Assembly: GCF_000144645.1 (NCBI RefSeq)
Contig: NC_014377.1
Location: 186,001 to 250,000 of the forward strand
DNA: 64,000 nt
DNA from: Thermosediminibacter oceani DSM 16646
GTDB lineage: Bacteria; Bacillota; Thermosediminibacteria; Thermosediminibacterales; Thermosediminibacteraceae
Direction: 5' to 3'
The notes below the pieces were generated by a model that saw only the letters and a list, made by a program, of their open reading frames with translations, had not been told where the DNA came from and searched no databases. Both the position numbers and the translations under genes were made by a program. Of this stretch, positions 3 to 15,184 are shown piece by piece. Within the stretch, counting starts at the first letter, position 1. Every line of letters starts with the position of its first letter.

Positions 3-692
3 ATTACAAAGATAGATGGGGTAGAAAATCTATATGCTGTAAAAATCGATCAAAGAAAAGCAACCGAAGAATATAAAAACGCGATATTAGAAGATGCCAG
101 AAAAAAGTTTGACATAAACACGGTAAAAGCCATGGAAGAAGAACTCAACTCACCCTGCACCGAGGAAATGGCAGCCTTTCAAAAGTTTATCGATTATGCC
201 TGTGAAGAAAATTTTGATGTGATTGTATTTGATACCGCACCCACCGGACATACATTAAGACTCCTGGAACTTCCTTTAGATTGGAGCAAACAGATACAGT
301 TGAAGGCTGGGTTAACTGCAGAAATAAGTGAAGCCGACAAGGCCCAAAAGGAAAGATTCGATAAAGTCATAGAAATGATGAAAGATAAAGAAACAACTAC
401 TTTTAGTTTCGTCATGTATCCTGAAAAAACACCCATCATTGAAGCCTATAGAGCTTCAAAAGAGCTGGAGACAATAGGGATAAAGACCCAGCTTGTTGTA
501 GTCAATATGATAATACCGGAAGAACAGGCTATTACGCCTTTCTTTAAAAATAGAAGAAATATGCAGATGAAGTATATCGAAGAAATAAAAGAAAGGTTTA
601 AAGAAGCGGAAATTTTACAGGTACCGCTTTTTGAAAAGGAAATTAAGGGTTTAAAAATGTTAACGCAAATATCCAAAATTTTATTTAGCTAG
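3..692 (+). CDS. arsA: Arsenical pump-driving ATPase ArsA, 5' end outside the window
   Basis: This is the C-terminal 229 residues of an ArsA/GET3-type ATPase. The frame is open from base 3, so the start lies upstream of the window. The motif DTAPTGHTLRLLELP near base 231 is the family's signal-transducing DTAP box, which links metalloid binding to ATP hydrolysis. The Walker A P-loop would lie in the missing part. ArsA energises an ArsB or Acr3 arsenite exporter from the cytoplasmic face. The next gene begins 12 bases after the stop and looks like its metallochaperone, so this is the tail of an ars operon. The family call is secure; whether the full protein has one or two ATPase halves cannot be seen. 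Confidence 0.9.
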   Translation: MTKIDGVENLYAVKIDQRKATEEYKNAILEDARKKFDINTVKAMEEELNSPCTEEMAAFQKFIDYACEENFDVIVFDTAPTGHTLRLLELPLDWSKQIQLKAGLTAEISEADKAQKERFDKVIEMMKDKETTTFSFVMYPEKTPIIEAYRASKELETIGIKTQLVVVNMIIPEEQAITPFFKNRRNMQMKYIEEIKERFKEAEILQVPLFEKEIKGLKMLTQISKILFS

Positions 693-703
693 GAGGATAC
701 AAA

Positions 704-1039
704 ATGAATGAAAAAGTAAAAGTGGAAATATTCGGAATAAGAGATATGGCTGCAGCAAGCGGCTGAGGGTGCAGCAGCAGCGGGGGCTGTAGCCCTGCAA
801 AAACAATGGGAGAAATGTATGATGAGTTTGTAGAATTCATTCAAAATAGTGATGTAAAAGACAAGGTTGATATTAAGTTTATAGATGTAATGGAAGATAG
901 CTTGGATGGATACGATGCGGTTAAAACCATGCTGGAAAAAGGCTATGGTATGCCGCTAACAGCAGTCAATGGGAGATTAAGGTTTTACGGTGGGATATCC
1001 AACGAAATGTTTTATGAAGAGATAAAAAAACACCTTTGA
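704..1039 (+). CDS. Predicted ArsD-like selenoprotein with in-frame UGA at codon 21
   Basis: An ATG at 704 sits behind AGGAGG (691-696). The frame runs 20 codons, meets TGA at 764-766, and continues in the same frame to the stop at 1039, giving 111 residues if UGA is read as selenocysteine. The segment is Gly-Sec-Gly-Cys-Ser-Ser-Ser-Gly-Gly-Cys, a metal or redox thiol cluster near the N-terminus. After it comes a thioredoxin-like pattern: helix, strand VDIKFIDV, then MPLTAVNG with the cis-Pro-like MP and RFYGG. A stable hairpin starts at the UGA. The small size, Cys-rich N-terminus and position behind arsA suggest an ArsD-type arsenite metallochaperone or thiol reductase. A gene starting only at ATG 806 would lose the cluster and has no good ribosome site. 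Function is inferred; the Sec reading is strongly suggested. Confidence 0.8.
766..796 (+). promoter_or_regulatory. Bacterial SECIS-like hairpin just after the UGA
   Basis: Bases 766-775 pair with 786-796: A-U, three G-C, then U-A, G-U, C-G, A-U, G-C and C-G, with one bulged G at 792. The apical loop is the 10 bases 776-785 and has G at its second position. The GC-rich stem stands out in an AT-rich gene. Location directly after UGA and a G early in the loop fit the known bacterial SECIS pattern for SelB recruitment. Confidence 0.75.
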
Positions 1040-1334: not shown

Positions 1335-2564
1335 GTGCTAGGGAGTGGATCTATTATCATGTTACACGAATTAAGAGCAATGGGCAAGAGCATCCGTGCA
1401 ATTGCACGAGAAACAGGCCGTTCAAGGAATACGGTAAGAAAATACTTAAGGGCAGAGGGCATTCCCGAAAGGAAGCCGCATCCCAAAAGAGGATCAAAGC
1501 TCGATCCATACAAAGATACCATTCAAGAGCTCATAAATCTTGGTATATTCAATTGCGAAGTTATCTACGAAAGAATCAAAGAAGAAGGCTATACCGGCGG
1601 CCGCACTATCTTAAGGGACTATGTAAGACAATTTAGACCCCCAAAACAGGTTCCTGCCGTATGCCGCTACGAAACCAAGCCCGGCCAGCAGGCCCAGGTC
1701 GACTGGGGCGAATACACCTACATTGACGAGGAAACCGGCGAAATACGTAAGCTTTACGTCTTCGTCATGGTACTGGGTTACTCCAGAGCCATATACGTAG
1801 AATTCACAAACCGCTGCGACATACATACCTTCATCCGCTGCCTGATCCGCGGGTTTGAATACTTCGGCGGAGTGACCGACATAGTCCTTACCGACAGAAT
1901 GAAGACCGTAATACTTGGCACCGGAGAAAACAGAAAGCCCATATGGAACTCCATCTTTGAAGACCTGGCTGTAACCCTTGGATTTACCCCTAAAGTGTGC
2001 AGAGCACGACGTCCACAGACCAAAGGCAAAGTAGAAAGCGGAATAGACTTTGTCAAAAGCAACTTCCTGCCGGGTAGGAAGTTCATAAACTACGGTGACT
2101 TAAACCACCAGGCAATAGTGTGGTGCGAAAAGAAAAACAGGAGGATTCACGGCACCACCGGGGAAAAGCCTATTGACCGCCTGAAGGAAGAAAACCTCAA
2201 ACCACTCCCTGCCTCTGACAGATACCAAAAATTCCTTGAAGAAGTAAGGAAAGTCCACAAAGACGGCCTCTTGAGCTTTAACGGCGTAAGATACGGCGTT
2301 CCCTGGCAATATAGCGGAAAAGAGGTGGTTGTAAGGGACAAAAACGGCAAAATCGAAATCCTCTATGATGGGAAGGTGATAGCAACCCACGAAAAACATT
2401 ATCGCTCAAGGACCATCGTTTTCCTCAAAGGTCAGTATAAGGGTCTAAAAGAAGCCGAAGGCATGTTCTATCCTAGACCGAGGGCTATCAAGTTATCTTC
2501 CCTGGAAGTTGAGAAGCGTTCTCTGGGGGTTTACGAAAGCCTCCTGGAGGTGGGCACAGTATGA
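1335..2564 (+). CDS. istA: IS21-family transposase IstA
   Basis: The 409-residue DDE transposase starts at GTG behind GGAGGG. An N-terminal helix-turn-helix (MGKSIRAIARETGRSRNTVRKYL, about residues 15-37, quoted here only as the region) precedes the integrase-like core. Candidate catalytic residues are the Asp in QVDWGEY, the Asp in LTDRMK and the Glu in KGKVESG. A C-terminal beta-rich domain follows. IstA cuts and joins the element ends. Its last four bases overlap istB (ATGA), which implies translational coupling, standard for this family. Length and motifs are normal, with no frameshift seen. Confidence 0.93.
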   Translation: MLGSGSIIMLHELRAMGKSIRAIARETGRSRNTVRKYLRAEGIPERKPHPKRGSKLDPYKDTIQELINLGIFNCEVIYERIKEEGYTGGRTILRDYVRQFRPPKQVPAVCRYETKPGQQAQVDWGEYTYIDEETGEIRKLYVFVMVLGYSRAIYVEFTNRCDIHTFIRCLIRGFEYFGGVTDIVLTDRMKTVILGTGENRKPIWNSIFEDLAVTLGFTPKVCRARRPQTKGKVESGIDFVKSNFLPGRKFINYGDLNHQAIVWCEKKNRRIHGTTGEKPIDRLKEENLKPLPASDRYQKFLEEVRKVHKDGLLSFNGVRYGVPWQYSGKEVVVRDKNGKIEILYDGKVIATHEKHYRSRTIVFLKGQYKGLKEAEGMFYPRPRAIKLSSLEVEKRSLGVYESLLEVGTV

Positions 2565-3331
2565 TAGACCTTGAAAAAGCTCGGTCCCACCTTGAAGAAC
2601 TGGGGCTTTTAAACGCAGCATCTTTCCTTGACGCCCTCCTTGAAAGAGCTCAACGCCAAAATAGCACGTATCTTGATTTCTTAAATAACCTGCTCGAGGC
2701 TGAACTTGCTGAAAGGCAAAGGCGGAATATCGAGGTAAGGTCAAAACTTGCCCGGCTTCCATACCGCAAGACTCTAACCGAATTTGACTTTGCCTTCCAG
2801 CCCAGCATCGATGAAAAACTGATAAAAGAGCTTGCCACAATGGCCTTTGTCCACCGGGTAGAAAACGTAATATTTCTTGGCCCGCCTGGAGTAGGGAAGA
2901 CGCACCTTGCCGTGGCTCTTGCTATAGAAGCCCTATCTTGTGGTATATCAGTCTACTTCACGAGTCTTTCTAGGCTCATTGAGGACCTCAAAAAGGCATA
3001 TAAAGAAAGCCGGTTAGAAAGGCGAATGAGGATCTACACTAGGCCCAAGCTCCTTGTAATCGATGAAGTAGGCTATCTTCCATTAGATGGCCTTGGCTCG
3101 AACCTCTTTTTCCAGCTAATAAGTGCCCGATATGAAAAGGGGAGCATAATACTTACCAGCAACAAAGGCTTTGGAGAATGGGGGGAGCTCATGGGAGACC
3201 CTGTACTTGCTACTGCAGTGTTGGATAGACTATTACACCATGCCCACATAATCAACATAAGGGGCAACAGCTACCGCCTAAAGGACAGGCTAAAGACCGG
3301 GTTGTATGGTAACCAACATAATAATGCTTAA
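2561..3331 (+). CDS. istB: IS21-family helper ATPase IstB
   Basis: The 256-residue protein is a DnaC-like AAA+ ATPase. It has Walker A GPPGVGKTHLA, Walker B LLVIDEVGYLP and a sensor-like ILTSNKGFGEW. In the IS21 family IstB assembles on target DNA and activates IstA for insertion. The start is the ATG in the ATGA overlap with istA. The protein is full length for the family. The right terminal repeats of the element begin about 20 bases after the stop. Confidence 0.93.
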   Translation: MIDLEKARSHLEELGLLNAASFLDALLERAQRQNSTYLDFLNNLLEAELAERQRRNIEVRSKLARLPYRKTLTEFDFAFQPSIDEKLIKELATMAFVHRVENVIFLGPPGVGKTHLAVALAIEALSCGISVYFTSLSRLIEDLKKAYKESRLERRMRIYTRPKLLVIDEVGYLPLDGLGSNLFFQLISARYEKGSIILTSNKGFGEWGELMGDPVLATAVLDRLLHHAHIINIRGNSYRLKDRLKTGLYGNQHNNA

Positions 3332-3378
3332 ATTTAAAAAAAGCCAGGGTGGGTCAATTTAAAATCGCTGAAAATGGG

Positions 3379-4233
3379 TCAATTTAAATCCGCTATTGAC
3401 AGATAGTTGCGATACTCAATTGGCGTCATGCATTTTAAACGTTTCTGATATCTCCTTGTATTGTAGTAATCTATGTATTCCTCAATCGCTTTTTTCAAGC
3501 TATCATAGTCATCAAACTTATGTAAGTAATACATCTCCGATTTCAGAATTCCCCAGAATCCCTCCATAGGGCCATTATCTATGCAGCGGCCTACCCTAGA
3601 CATACTCTGGGTCATTCCTGCCTTATCCAGTTTTGACTTAAAGGTTTTATTGGTATATTGGAAGCCACGGTCACTATGGAAGATGGGTTTTGCATCAGGA
3701 TGGCTAGCAACTGCCAAATCAAAAGTCTCAAACACAAGTGCATTGTTGTTTGAATGGCCAATAACGTAAGATACTATGCTTCTATCTGCAAGGTCAAGAA
3801 TTGCGCTAAGATATGCTTTCTGGCCATTACCATATTTGAATTCCGTTACATCCGTAAGCCATTTCTCACATGTATGTTCTGCCTTGAAATCCCGATTTAG
3901 TACATTCTCTGCGATAACTTCTGGAGTTGACTTTATGTAGTTATATTTCTTTTTCCTGCATACTGATTTTAAACCCATTACTTTCATCAGTCGATAAATT
4001 CGTTTATGATTAACCTTAAGTTGATGTTCACGGCGAAGCTTGATTGTCATTTGCCTGTAACCTAGTATACCATCTCTTTCCTCGTATGCTTCCCTGATAA
4101 GAACAAGCAGCTTCTCATTTTGAAGTTCATTTTGGCTTTTTTCCCTATGTCTCCACTTGTAGTAGGCAGATCTGCTGATTCCTGTGATTTTACATAGAGC
4201 TGAAACAGGGTAGTGTTTTTGTTCTAAAAGCAT
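3379..4233 (-). CDS. IS3-family transposase OrfB, 3' end replaced by IS21 sequence
   Basis: The 284-residue integrase-core protein has an N-terminal HTH_21-type region (GYRQMTIKLRR) and the DDE core: Asp in WLTDVTEF, Asp in IFHSDRGFQY, Glu in GPMEGFWG. It is normally made as an OrfAB fusion by -1 slippage from orfA. The frame is open upstream of ATG 4233 into the orfA end, as expected. The last residues SIADLN are encoded by the IS21 right end. Joining base 3402 to 1225 restores the presumed native tail of about 12 residues ending HKESTNHF. The catalytic core is intact, so activity may survive. Confidence 0.85.
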   Translation of the reverse strand: MLLEQKHYPVSALCKITGISRSAYYKWRHREKSQNELQNEKLLVLIREAYEERDGILGYRQMTIKLRREHQLKVNHKRIYRLMKVMGLKSVCRKKKYNYIKSTPEVIAENVLNRDFKAEHTCEKWLTDVTEFKYGNGQKAYLSAILDLADRSIVSYVIGHSNNNALVFETFDLAVASHPDAKPIFHSDRGFQYTNKTFKSKLDKAGMTQSMSRVGRCIDNGPMEGFWGILKSEMYYLHKFDDYDSLKKAIEEYIDYYNTRRYQKRLKCMTPIEYRNYLSIADLN

Positions 4234-4271
4234 CTGGATAACCAGGTATATTTCTTCATGCTTAACCAGGC

Positions 4272-4955
4272 TTAATACCGCCCCCCTTCTATTTCTTGGA
4301 GTTTTTTTAGGACTTCGTTCTCCATTTCAAGCCACCTATTCCTTGCTTCCAGAAGCTTGTTCTGGGCTTTTAACCTATCCATCTCTGTAAATTCATCTTC
4401 AGATTTGCGTTTGCCCCTTCTATCAATTAGGGCGTCTACACCGGATTTATCGTATTTTATTACCCAACTGCGAACCTGTTGATAGGAAACCTGATATTTC
4501 TCGGCGGTTTCAATGTAGTTTCTGTTATGCTCTAAACAGTATTTTACGATTTGTATACGTTCTTCCAATGTGGTATTACGTCCTTTGGTCATGATTGGTT
4601 TTCCTCCTGATCCCGAAGATTTTAGCCTCTCATGACCATTATACTTCAAAACCCAATCGGATAGTTGCTTTGTTGAGCGAATTTTATATTTCTTGCATAT
4701 ATCTAGTTTTGAAGCATTACCTGAAAGATATTCCTTAACGGCTGTATATTTCAGTTCTTGGGAATAGCTTGTATTTTTTGAGGAAGTAATTAATCCCGAT
4801 TCTCCCATTGCTTGATAGTTAGAAATCCATCGCCGTACTGAAGAATGGTCAACATTATATTCTTTTGCTATCTGCCTTTGGGTTTTCCTGCCTTTTAGAT
4901 AATCTTTTACAGCAGATAATTTTTGCTCAAAAGAAACTTTTGGTTTTCGACTCAT
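4272..4955 (-). CDS. IS3-family (IS150-like) OrfA, DNA-binding subunit
   Basis: The 227-residue protein carries three repeated helix-turn-helix units (about residues 5-45, 65-105 and 125-170) and a C-terminal coiled coil (LKAQNKLLEARNRWLEMENE), typical of IS150-type OrfA. It recognises the element ends and dimerises with OrfAB. A run of seven A on the coding strand (plus-strand T7 at 4302-4308) within CTAAAAAAAC lies 11 codons before the stop; slippage by -1 there enters the open orfB frame. Three HTH units is at the long end for OrfA but known for this subgroup. Confidence 0.87.
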   Translation of the reverse strand: MSRKPKVSFEQKLSAVKDYLKGRKTQRQIAKEYNVDHSSVRRWISNYQAMGESGLITSSKNTSYSQELKYTAVKEYLSGNASKLDICKKYKIRSTKQLSDWVLKYNGHERLKSSGSGGKPIMTKGRNTTLEERIQIVKYCLEHNRNYIETAEKYQVSYQQVRSWVIKYDKSGVDALIDRRGKRKSEDEFTEMDRLKAQNKLLEARNRWLEMENEVLKKLQEIEGGRY

Positions 4956-6916: not shown

Positions 6917-7834
6917 ATGTACAGGATAAGAATCTGTAAAATTGTTTTTTTACTCGTTCTTTCTCTGACCCTAGGTGTATTTTTGGCAGCTTGCGGGCAA
7001 AAGGCACCGTCGGAGGGGAATTTAGGAAAGAATTCAGAGAGCGGTGAGGTTATCCTTGCTACCACCACCAGCACTCAGGACAGCGGACTCCTGGATGTAC
7101 TTATACCTATCTTTGAACAGAAGACTGGGTATAAAGTGAAAATCATTCCGGTTGGTACCGGTCAGGCACTTGCCATGGGAGAAAAAGGTAACGCCGATGT
7201 GATGCTGGTACATGCTCCGGAGGATGAGATTGAGCTGGTAGAAAAGGGTGCAGCCATAAACAGGCGGCTCGTTATGCATAATGATTTCGTGATCGTGGGG
7301 CCGGCAGAAGACCCTGCGGGGATTAAAAATGCTAAAGATGCTGCGGAAGCTTTTAAACTAATTGCAGAAAAAGAAGCCCTCTTCATCTCCCGGGGAGATA
7401 ATTCCGGCACCCATAAAAAAGAACTGGATATCTGGAAAAAGGCCGGAATAGAAAACCCATCGGGCAAGTGGTATCAGTCTACAGGCCAGGGGATGGGTGC
7501 AACCCTTGACGTAGCCTCCGAAAAAAGCGGATATACCCTGACCGACAGGGCTACATATCTTGCCAAAAAGGATAAGCTCCACCTTGTCATACTGAAGGAA
7601 AAGGACGGGTCGTTGATCAACATCTATCACGTGATGCAGGCTAACCCCGATTATGTAAAACAATCCAATCCCGATGCGGCCGGGATGATAAATGTAGAGG
7701 GAGCGAGGGCTTTTGTGGAATTCATGGTAGCCCCTGAGACGCAGAAGATAATAGGTGAATTCGGGAAGGATAAATTCGGTCAGCCGCTTTTTATCCCCGA
7801 TGCCGGCAAAAGCGAAGATAATATTCTCGAATAG
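6917..7834 (+). CDS. tupA: Tungstate ABC transporter, substrate-binding lipoprotein TupA
   Basis: The 305-residue protein begins with a lipoprotein signal peptide ending LAAC, with the lipidated Cys at residue 26. The mature part opens with ILATTTSTQDSGLLD, the oxyanion-binding TTTST motif typical of TupA, and later has the SRGDNSGTH segment. TupA binds tungstate (and more weakly molybdate) outside the membrane and passes it to TupBC. The start has AAAGGAGG at good spacing. tupB and tupC follow directly. Tungstate uptake fits an anaerobe with tungstopterin enzymes such as formate dehydrogenase or aldehyde oxidoreductase, none of which is proven in this window. Confidence 0.92.
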   Translation: MYRIRICKIVFLLVLSLTLGVFLAACGQKAPSEGNLGKNSESGEVILATTTSTQDSGLLDVLIPIFEQKTGYKVKIIPVGTGQALAMGEKGNADVMLVHAPEDEIELVEKGAAINRRLVMHNDFVIVGPAEDPAGIKNAKDAAEAFKLIAEKEALFISRGDNSGTHKKELDIWKKAGIENPSGKWYQSTGQGMGATLDVASEKSGYTLTDRATYLAKKDKLHLVILKEKDGSLINIYHVMQANPDYVKQSNPDAAGMINVEGARAFVEFMVAPETQKIIGEFGKDKFGQPLFIPDAGKSEDNILE

Positions 7835-7852
7835 CGAGCGAGGGGACTTTAT

Positions 7853-8560
7853 TTGGAAGCTGTAATGGATGGCGTCAAAAGGGCACTGATCCTGCTTTTT
7901 ACTCTAGACAAAGAGGTATACCAGATAACACTTTTTACGTTAAAGGTGACCGGGACCGCAACTCTCATCAGTGTCGTCCTGTCTTTACCGCTGGCCTTTT
8001 TAATCGCTTTAAAGGATTTTCCCGGCAAAAGGTTAATCATAAGCCTTGCTAACCTGGGAATGGGGCTCCCGCCGACGGTGGTGGGGCTCTGGGTCAGTCT
8101 CATGCTGTGGAGGAGCGGCCCTTTCGGCCGGCTTCGCCTTATATACACACCTAAAGCTATGATTATAGCCCAGGCCGTTATTGCGGCTCCGGTGATACTC
8201 GCTCTTTCTACAGCCGCCCTTCAGCAGTTGGATAAAAAATTAAGATGGCAGATCATGGCGCTGGGAGCTACCCCCATCCAGATGCTGTTTTTGATGATAA
8301 GGGAAGCCAGATACTCCCTGCTGGCAGCGGTGATGGCCGGGTTCGGGGCTGCCGTCTCCGAAGTTGGTGCTTCGATGATGGTAGGCGGCAATATAGCCGG
8401 TTACACCAGGGTGCTGACCACAGCTATAGTGCTGGAGACTGGAAAGGGCAATTTCGACGAAGCCCTGGCCCTCAGCTTTATCTTATTGCTGGTATCTTAC
8501 CTGGGGACACTCTGGCTTACCCTTTTGCAGCAGCGGAGGCATAAAGATGTATATAATTGA
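7853..8560 (+). CDS. tupB: Tungstate ABC transporter, permease TupB
   Basis: The 235-residue integral membrane protein has about five to six hydrophobic helices and the ABC permease coupling loop EAA-type segment (ALGATPIQMLFLMIREARY) that docks on TupC. The start is TTG at 7853 behind GAGGGG; an ATG four codons later is possible but less well placed. It lies 18 bases after tupA and overlaps tupC by 14 bases, so the three genes form one translationally coupled operon. The length is normal for TupB. Confidence 0.9.
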   Translation: MEAVMDGVKRALILLFTLDKEVYQITLFTLKVTGTATLISVVLSLPLAFLIALKDFPGKRLIISLANLGMGLPPTVVGLWVSLMLWRSGPFGRLRLIYTPKAMIIAQAVIAAPVILALSTAALQQLDKKLRWQIMALGATPIQMLFLMIREARYSLLAAVMAGFGAAVSEVGASMMVGGNIAGYTRVLTTAIVLETGKGNFDEALALSFILLLVSYLGTLWLTLLQQRRHKDVYN

Positions 8561-13753: not shown

Positions 13754-13832
13754 ATATTAAGTTAAACTTCTAAAATTTACCGCCCGGGTGAATAATTTTG
13801 CACTGCCTGTATATAATTGATGTATAGGAACT

Positions 13833-13881
13833 CATCGGAAATTATACCTTTTTTTCGGTTATTTTATCTAATTCCCCGATG
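13833..13881 (+). promoter_or_regulatory. Hairpin in the rho leader
   Basis: CATCGG followed by AAATTA (13833-13844) can pair with TAATT and CCGATG (13869-13881), leaving a small bulge and a T-rich loop. A U-rich tract follows before the rho ribosome site. It could be a site of autoregulation, since rho controls its own leader in other bacteria, but no known motif is recognised. Confidence 0.3.
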
Positions 13882-13918
13882 TGCGGTGAATTTTTTTATT
13901 TTATGAGGAGGCGATAAG

Positions 13919-15184
13919 TTGCTAGCATCGGAACTGGAAAAAAAGACTATTGCCCAGCTTCACGAGATAGCTAGGGAAAAAAAGATCCCGGGCTATTATA
14001 AGTACAGGAAGAAGGAACTCATTATTAAAATAATGGAAGCCATGGCCGCCGAGTCGGGAGACAGTATAGCCGAAGGGGTTCTTGAGGTGCTGCCCGATGG
14101 CTACGGCTTTTTGAGGATAGAAAACTACCTGCCCTCCGATGAGGATATATACATCTCGCCCTCTCAGATCCGCCGCTTTCATCTGCGCACGGGGGACCTG
14201 ATTTCGGGAAGGATAAGGCAGCCGAAAGAAGGAGAGAAGTACAGAGCCCTCCTGCAGGTCCACGCGGTAAACGGTCTCGATCCGGAACACGCCGTCAAGA
14301 GGTTTCACTTCGACTCACTGACGCCCATTTTCCCCCAGCCGAAACTCACTTTAGAGCACGATCCCGAGGAGCTTTCCACAAGGATAATCGACATCATTTC
14401 GCCTATCGGTAAAGGACAAAGAGCCCTCATAGTTTCCCCGCCCAAAGCCGGAAAGACGATGATGCTAAAAAAAATCGCCAACGCGCTAAGCAAAAACCAC
14501 CCCGACCTGGAACTTATAGTGCTTCTCATAGACGAGCGTCCGGAGGAAGTAACCGATATGAGGCGTTCGGTGGATGGTGAGGTGGTGAGCTCCACTTTCG
14601 ACGAACCGCCGGAAAATCACCTGCGCGTCGCCGATATGGTGCTTGAGCGCGCCCAGCGACTGGTGGAGAGCAAGAAAGACGTGGTGATATTGTTAGACAG
14701 CATCACGCGCCTTGCGAGGGCCAACAACCTGGTGGTGCCGCCGACCGGCAGGACGCTGTCCGGAGGTTTGGACCCCAGCGCGCTTCACAAGCCCAAGAGG
14801 TTCTTCGGCGCAGCGCGAAACATAGAAGAAGGCGGCAGCCTTACCATAATTGCCACCGCCCTCGTGGAAACGGGCAGCCGTATGGACGACGTGATTTACG
14901 AGGAGTTTAAAGGCACCGGTAACATGGAAATTCACCTTGACAGAAAACTGGCGGAGCGCCGGATTTACCCGGCCATAGACATAAAAAAATCGGGCACCCG
15001 CCGGGAGGAACTGCTGCTCTCAAAGGAAGAACTGGAGGCCGTGTGGGTGCTCAGAAAGGCCCTTGCTCCGCTGGATACCGTCGAGGCGGCCAGCACACTC
15101 ATCAGCAGGTTGAAAAGGACAAAAACTAACCGGGAATTTCTTGAAAACCTGGCTGCCACATTAAACGAGTTACAGCTAACTTAG
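13919..15184 (+). CDS. rho: Transcription termination factor Rho
   Basis: The 421-residue protein is a full-length, compact Rho. It has the N-terminal Rho_N helices (about residues 3-45), a cold-shock-like primary RNA site (about 50-125), and a RecA-type ATPase with Walker [11 protein letters not shown], Walker [14 protein letters not shown] and the [24 protein letters not shown] region with R- and Q-loops (named here only in part). It forms the hexameric RNA translocase that ends transcription. The start is TTG at 13919 with AGGAGG eight bases upstream. Its stop is six bases from the convergent MazG-like gene, with no terminator between them. Confidence 0.95.

Follow-up and report, generated by a model that had tools for sequence, protein, structure and literature searches.

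The window analysed here is a stretch of 64,000 nucleotides (C1:186001-250000) of the Thermosediminibacter oceani genome, which consists of one contig of 2,280,035 bases. Its positions 1-692, on the forward strand, hold the 3' part of a second half-size arsA gene, the full gene of which starts upstream of the window (about 13766-14692 of locus L009, from which window positions are obtained by subtracting 14000). Behind it lies a forward-strand frame at 704-1039 (L009 14704-15039), which runs from ATG 704 to a terminal TGA at 1037-1039 and, translated with TGA as a residue, contains a single internal stop, the TGA at 764-766. Read through, this frame, hereafter the UGA gene, would encode a predicted selenoprotein of 111 aa with a thioredoxin fold and ArsD/YuzD-like character (MNEKVKVEIFGIRDMAAASGUGCSSSGGCSPAKTMGEMYDEFV...YGMPLTAVNGRLRFYGGISNEMFYEEIKKHL), in which residue 21 is the predicted selenocysteine (Sec) in a Gly-UGA-Gly-Cys context. 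An AGGAGG ribosome-binding site (691-696, forward strand) precedes ATG 704, and no AGGAGG-like site lies in front of ATG 806, from which bare ORF calling yields 806-1039 only. An earlier note on the same DNA had described the lone TGA, its Gly-UGA-Gly-Cys context, the ribosome site present for 704 and missing for 806, and the adjoining arsA, all of which were borne out.

The DNA upstream of the window completes the operon with arsR (L009 12147-12485), a canonical arsD (L009 12599-12919, the product of which begins MKIEFYEPPMCCPTGLCG) and the first half-size arsA (L009 12919-13806), so that the UGA gene is the last in the order arsR-arsD-arsA-arsA-UGA gene. The operon itself contains no acr3/arsB. 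Just downstream and outside the operon lies an IS21 element (1335-3331, forward strand; istA 1335-2564, istB 2561-3331); together with an IS3-like pair on the reverse strand (3379-4955, named by eye) it makes two insertion sequences back to back right after the operon (1335-4955). Further along, genes resembling a tungstate-type ABC transporter were recognized by eye at 6917-8560 (binding protein 6917-7834, permease 7853-8560), and this transporter may possibly feed W/Se enzymes.

The ars operon context given in the earlier note not only held but could be extended to other genomes. Thermosediminibacter litoriperuensis, a 99% match, shares all five genes but lacks the IS21 element behind them, and a genome of another family (G161) holds the whole set of arsR, acr3, arsD, arsA, arsA and the UGA gene, with an arsM-like gene, named from the sequence by eye, near the ars set. 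A form with cysteine in place of Sec follows arsR, arsD, arsA and arsA in G320, and two arsA genes immediately precede the Cys form in G362. The gene therefore belongs regularly to operons of this kind, and gene order supports its belonging to the arsenic response. The pair arsA-arsA also lies directly upstream of the relative at L011, L014, L015, L016, L017 and L019. The acr3 gene of T. oceani sits elsewhere in the genome, away from the arsR-arsD-arsA-arsA operon, and a search of two close relatives detected no acr3. In G320 (G320:C1:2933666-2934030), 6 kb from the Cys-form operon, two short fragments match separate parts of the acr3 model; they are probably a decayed acr3, so that arsDAA and the Cys form would persist there as a set with no intact acr3 close by. 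T. oceani also carries a second ars-type cluster (L094 11558-14794 and 17573-18661; C1:1988057-1995160), in which arsR-acr3 lie on one strand and arsR with a SaoE-like permease on the other; it lies about 3 kb from the Sec-containing selD gene, with a transposase-like gene in between.

The genome encodes the machinery for Sec insertion outside the window, where the earlier note had suggested looking for it: selA (762006-763379, 625 bits), selB (763400-765268, 379 bits), tRNA-Sec, the selC product (765398-765488, 81 bits, over the cut-off), and selD (1994174-1995097, 392 bits), the last with its own in-frame UGA in the motif CSSGUASKL. Relatives of the UGA gene were searched in 398 sampled genomes of the phylum at E<=0.001 and were found in 58, with about half having TGA at a loop-Cys position and half Cys. 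Homologues with Cys at codon 21 are present, with TGC or TGT in the C21 column (29 of 62 aligned relatives). The TGA column corresponds to C21 in the branch of the window protein and to C29 in another large branch, characterized by C-x5-GUGP; in a few other relatives TGA falls at a neighbouring loop Cys. TGA forms were counted in 30 genomes, all 30 of which have selB over the cut-off, compared with 262 of 398 (66%) overall. On a tree of 62 members built from 118 columns, the forks of which are individually weak because of this shortness, 13 changes between Sec and Cys were counted, at least 7 of them forced by well-supported branches.

These comparisons bear directly on two explanations that would do away with a selenoprotein. 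If TGA 764-766 were a true stop, the product would be a leader peptide of 20 aa, or the gene would be truncated and in decay, and translation might restart at ATG 806; this would agree with the stub left by ORF calling and with the insertion element after the operon. However, the relatives are intact through the site, which also settles the earlier concern that homologues might all end at the UGA: Cys or TGA stands there, and TAA or TAG never occurs as an internal stop among the matches in the 58 genomes. In addition, comparison with G320 gave 25, 15 and 57 changes at codon positions 1, 2 and 3 and silent changes both before and after the TGA, which indicates coding constraint on both halves of 704-1039 rather than decay. 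With selB in every TGA genome and no ribosome site at ATG 806, a true stop is very improbable. A sequencing error for TGC or TGT, which could be imagined since half of the relatives have Cys at this place, has a negligible probability, because the same TGA recurs in three assemblies (the complete T. oceani genome, the isolate genome of another species, T. litoriperuensis, and a MAG) and TGA occurs at loop-Cys positions in 27 further genomes.

In the bacterial SECIS model, the apical loop lies 16-37 nt after the UGA (PMC13188914), and candidate hairpins were accordingly sought at this spacing with a G in the loop. A candidate at 780-798 (forward strand, GCGGGG-GCUGUAG-CCCUGC, loop 786-792, -9.7 kcal/mol) has its loop 19 nt after the UGA and fits the model; its z-score against synonymous recoding is -1.0, which is not significant alone. 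The hairpin proposed in the earlier note (767-795, forward strand, 767-775 paired with 786-795) does exist, with -15 kcal/mol, but is not a likely SECIS: its z-score of -0.62 is no better than that of shuffled sequence, and its loop opens about 9 nt after the UGA, outside the SECIS spacing. The two structures are mutually exclusive. In the MAG copy a 3-nt deletion puts the hairpin loop at 16 nt, and Cys relatives retain a similar GC-rich hairpin; together with the z-score of -1.0, this makes 780-798 weak evidence for this one gene. Across the family, the enrichment of SECIS-like hairpins in Sec forms is good evidence, with z-scores measured against synonymous recoding averaging -1.55 over the 33 Sec forms, against 0.00 over the 29 Cys forms (p 1.9e-6 by the Mann-Whitney test; p 4e-4 and 1.5e-4 after thinning to <60% and <45% identity). 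A looser first scoring (p 0.05) was judged to be confounded by GC content and was replaced by these z-scores. The strongest hairpins occur in the C-x5-GUGP branch. Near the UGA gene, Rfam models gave nothing beyond chance scores. The Cys homologues at the codon, the UGA homologues in 30 genomes, the Sec machinery, the interchange of Sec and Cys and the SECIS enrichment bear out the selenoprotein call of the earlier note, and UGA 764-766 is, on this comparative evidence, very probably decoded as Sec21.

The relatives lie only in part beside arsenic genes. When ArsR, ArsA, Acr3, the SaoE/SO_0444-type permease and the ArsE-type thioredoxin TIGR00412 were counted as ars-type, 23 of the 62 aligned loci, and 9 of the 33 Sec forms, were within about 2 kb of such a gene, and many Sec members lie away from ars genes. 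ArsR-family repressors regulate other metals as well, so ArsR alone is weak evidence of an ars link. At least three Cys/Sec residues occur in the loop in 20 of the 23 ars-linked members and in 22 of the other 39 (p 0.02 without correction for kinship). Across the wider family, just two Cys/Sec positions come close to being universal. The C-x5-GUGP relatives in six genomes of family f15 (L055, L062, L067, L068, L076 and L081), mostly with very strong SECIS-type hairpins, lie directly behind queD- and queC-like genes, named by eye, and not behind ars genes; they are a second Sec branch in a different context. Another Sec branch (L063, L064 and L071, the last being the clearest) lies about 0.6 kb downstream of a thioredoxin reductase-like gene, again named by eye.

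Pfam yields nothing for the window protein and NCBIfam nothing above noise, and no selenoprotein model of NCBIfam release 20.0 matches it; membership in SaoT (NF040730) was rejected on the same ground. Among its 62 aligned relatives, 25 match DUF1462 (PF07315) at E<=0.01 (best 1.4e-6, the window protein not among them), four match the Pfam ArsD model, three the NCBIfam ArsD model and five the MJ0307 thioredoxin model (all of these weakly), and the NCBIfam scan of these 62 members gave one weak HUIPC selenoprotein match. The family profile matches 1xg8, the DUF1462 protein of Staphylococcus aureus, at E 1.7e-8. An AlphaFold2 model of the window protein has a thioredoxin fold (pLDDT 82, pTM 0.73), in which loop 19-30 has a pLDDT below 50 and the geometry of the loop site is therefore not given. 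The closest structure to the model is 1xg8 (Z 9.9, 99 residues, 2.7 A); the ArsD structures 3mwh and 3kgk follow with Z 9.0 and 8.9 (third and fifth in rank) and ordinary thioredoxins with 8-9, differences below 1 that amount to ties, so that the fold alone cannot separate ArsD from thioredoxin. Foldseek placed 1xg8 first and ArsD second. In a profile comparison by hhalign, the family matched the ArsD of the operon with 94.7%, with C29 opposite the third Cys of ArsD and U21 close to its first Cys pair. DUF1462 and ArsD have been placed together in the thioredoxin clan (PMC3091736). The window protein, as modelled, is thus a thioredoxin-fold protein nearest to YuzD/DUF1462 and ArsD. The relation to ArsD suggested in the earlier note accordingly holds remotely, at the level of fold and profile, but identity as ArsD was rejected, since the canonical arsD lies three genes upstream and the ArsD models do not match the window protein. 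No relatives were found in plasmid and phage collections, and PADLOC returned nothing.

Based on the operon order, the loop residues and the profile alignment, the UGA gene product was proposed, with a probability of roughly 0.55, to be a selenoprotein that, encoded as the last gene of arsR-arsD-arsA-arsA, acts as a partner of the split ArsA ATPase and binds As(III) through selenol and thiol groups. In this scheme, a flexible loop of the thioredoxin-fold protein would carry U21, C23 and C29, the selenolate and two thiolates of which may bind As(III) or Sb(III) in an ArsD-like manner. The As(III) site of Escherichia coli ArsD is formed by Cys12, Cys13 and Cys18, and U21/C23/C29 could form a comparable three-coordinate As(III)/Sb(III) site. 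The vicinal CC..C As(III) motif of ArsD is absent, and U-G-C-x5-C occupies the loop that is equivalent by profile alignment. The bound As(III) could then be passed to the adjacent half-ArsA or be kept away from the thiols of the cell. The order arsD-arsA1-arsA2-UGA gene, which sets one small thioredoxin-fold protein beside each half-ArsA, is suggestive only, and the canonical ArsD already present in the operon leaves no obvious need for another chaperone. That the loop binds As(III) and hands it over to ArsA, as argued by analogy, is put at slightly below even odds. The more specific idea of an uncatalogued ArsD-like metallochaperone family, in which As(III) is coordinated directly by the selenolate and delivered to one half of the split ArsA pump ATPase, is offered tentatively; if true, selenium would serve there as a metalloid ligand and not as a redox centre.

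A redox role is nearly as likely as As(III) binding and is itself a tentative but serious candidate. The selenoprotein would then be a selenol oxidoreductase of the thioredoxin/glutaredoxin type, in which U21 makes the attack on a disulfide or As-S bond and C23 or C29 acts as the resolving residue, and which could keep the thiols of ArsA, ArsD and ArsR reduced or supply electrons for arsenate reduction. The thioredoxin fold with its invariant cis-Pro (P84), the occurrence of Sec opposite Cys, the weak MJ0307 thioredoxin matches and the location of relatives beside TIGR00412 ArsE-type thioredoxins, CcdA-like proteins or thioredoxin reductase all agree with such an activity, and most thioredoxin-fold selenoproteins are regarded as redox enzymes (PMC13188914). 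In contrast, neither CxxC nor UxxC stands at the helix start, the U-x-C-x5-C loop is more ArsD-like than thioredoxin-like, and the operon in the window lacks arsC. The preferred reading remains a protein that binds As(III) in partnership with the split ArsA.

None of the 119 prokaryotic selenoprotein families inventoried in 2026 is DUF1462/YuzD-like, ArsD-like or tied to an ArsA operon (PMC13188914). Searches of the literature on YuzD/DUF1462 and on ArsA/ArsD together with selenoproteins likewise brought up no account of the family, and NCBIfam 20.0, without a matching selenoprotein model, should include the models of Haft 2023 and 2025. The locus is therefore predicted to represent an uncatalogued selenoprotein family of the thioredoxin fold with an arsenic link. 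Because standard gene calling leaves a stub (806-1039) or nothing, a Sec/Cys family that occurs in about 15% of the phylum's sampled genomes could go unseen. Its prediction connects the decoding of selenium with the arsenic detoxification operon that has been studied best, and the natural Sec/Cys pairs of T. oceani and G320/G362 (65% identical, in the same operon) offer a way to learn what selenium contributes to the handling of arsenic.

Among known systems, YuzD/DUF1462 (PF07315; SA0789/SA0798, 1xg8) shares with the window protein the thioredoxin fold, a Cys before helix 1 and a P-L-x-x-x-N region ahead of the last strand; in contrast to the short C-ASC loop of 1xg8, the window protein carries Sec, and its loop is extended and holds three chalcogen residues. 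ArsD (PF06953 / NF033727; 3kgk, 3mwh) resembles it in fold (Z 9), in sharing an operon with ArsA, in a loop of three Cys/Sec residues after strand 1, in an LPxxxxNG-type motif and in the profile comparison, whereas its CC(P/S)TGLCG motif is missing from the window protein. SaoT, the HUIPC-motif proteins and other thioredoxin-like selenoproteins of NCBIfam (NF040730, NF047660) are likewise small thioredoxin-fold proteins, some in metal(loid) contexts, but their models do not match the window protein, the Sec motif of which is U-x-C-x5-C. The Brachyspira proteins Sec.1 and Sec.2 (PF13192, redox-active disulfide protein 2) are also thioredoxin-like with a Cys/Sec pair, and their Sec lies in an extension N-terminal to a CXXC thioredoxin domain (PMC5330540); PF13192 matches one of the 62 relatives, weakly. 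The remark of the earlier note that known selenoproteins are redox enzymes and that one for arsenic would be unusual was too strong, because a Sec-containing arsenite methyltransferase (ArsM) and a Sec-containing arsenate reductase have already been catalogued (PMC13188914). These also place selenium in arsenic metabolism, but as enzymes of other families that, as far as catalogued, lie outside ArsA operons.
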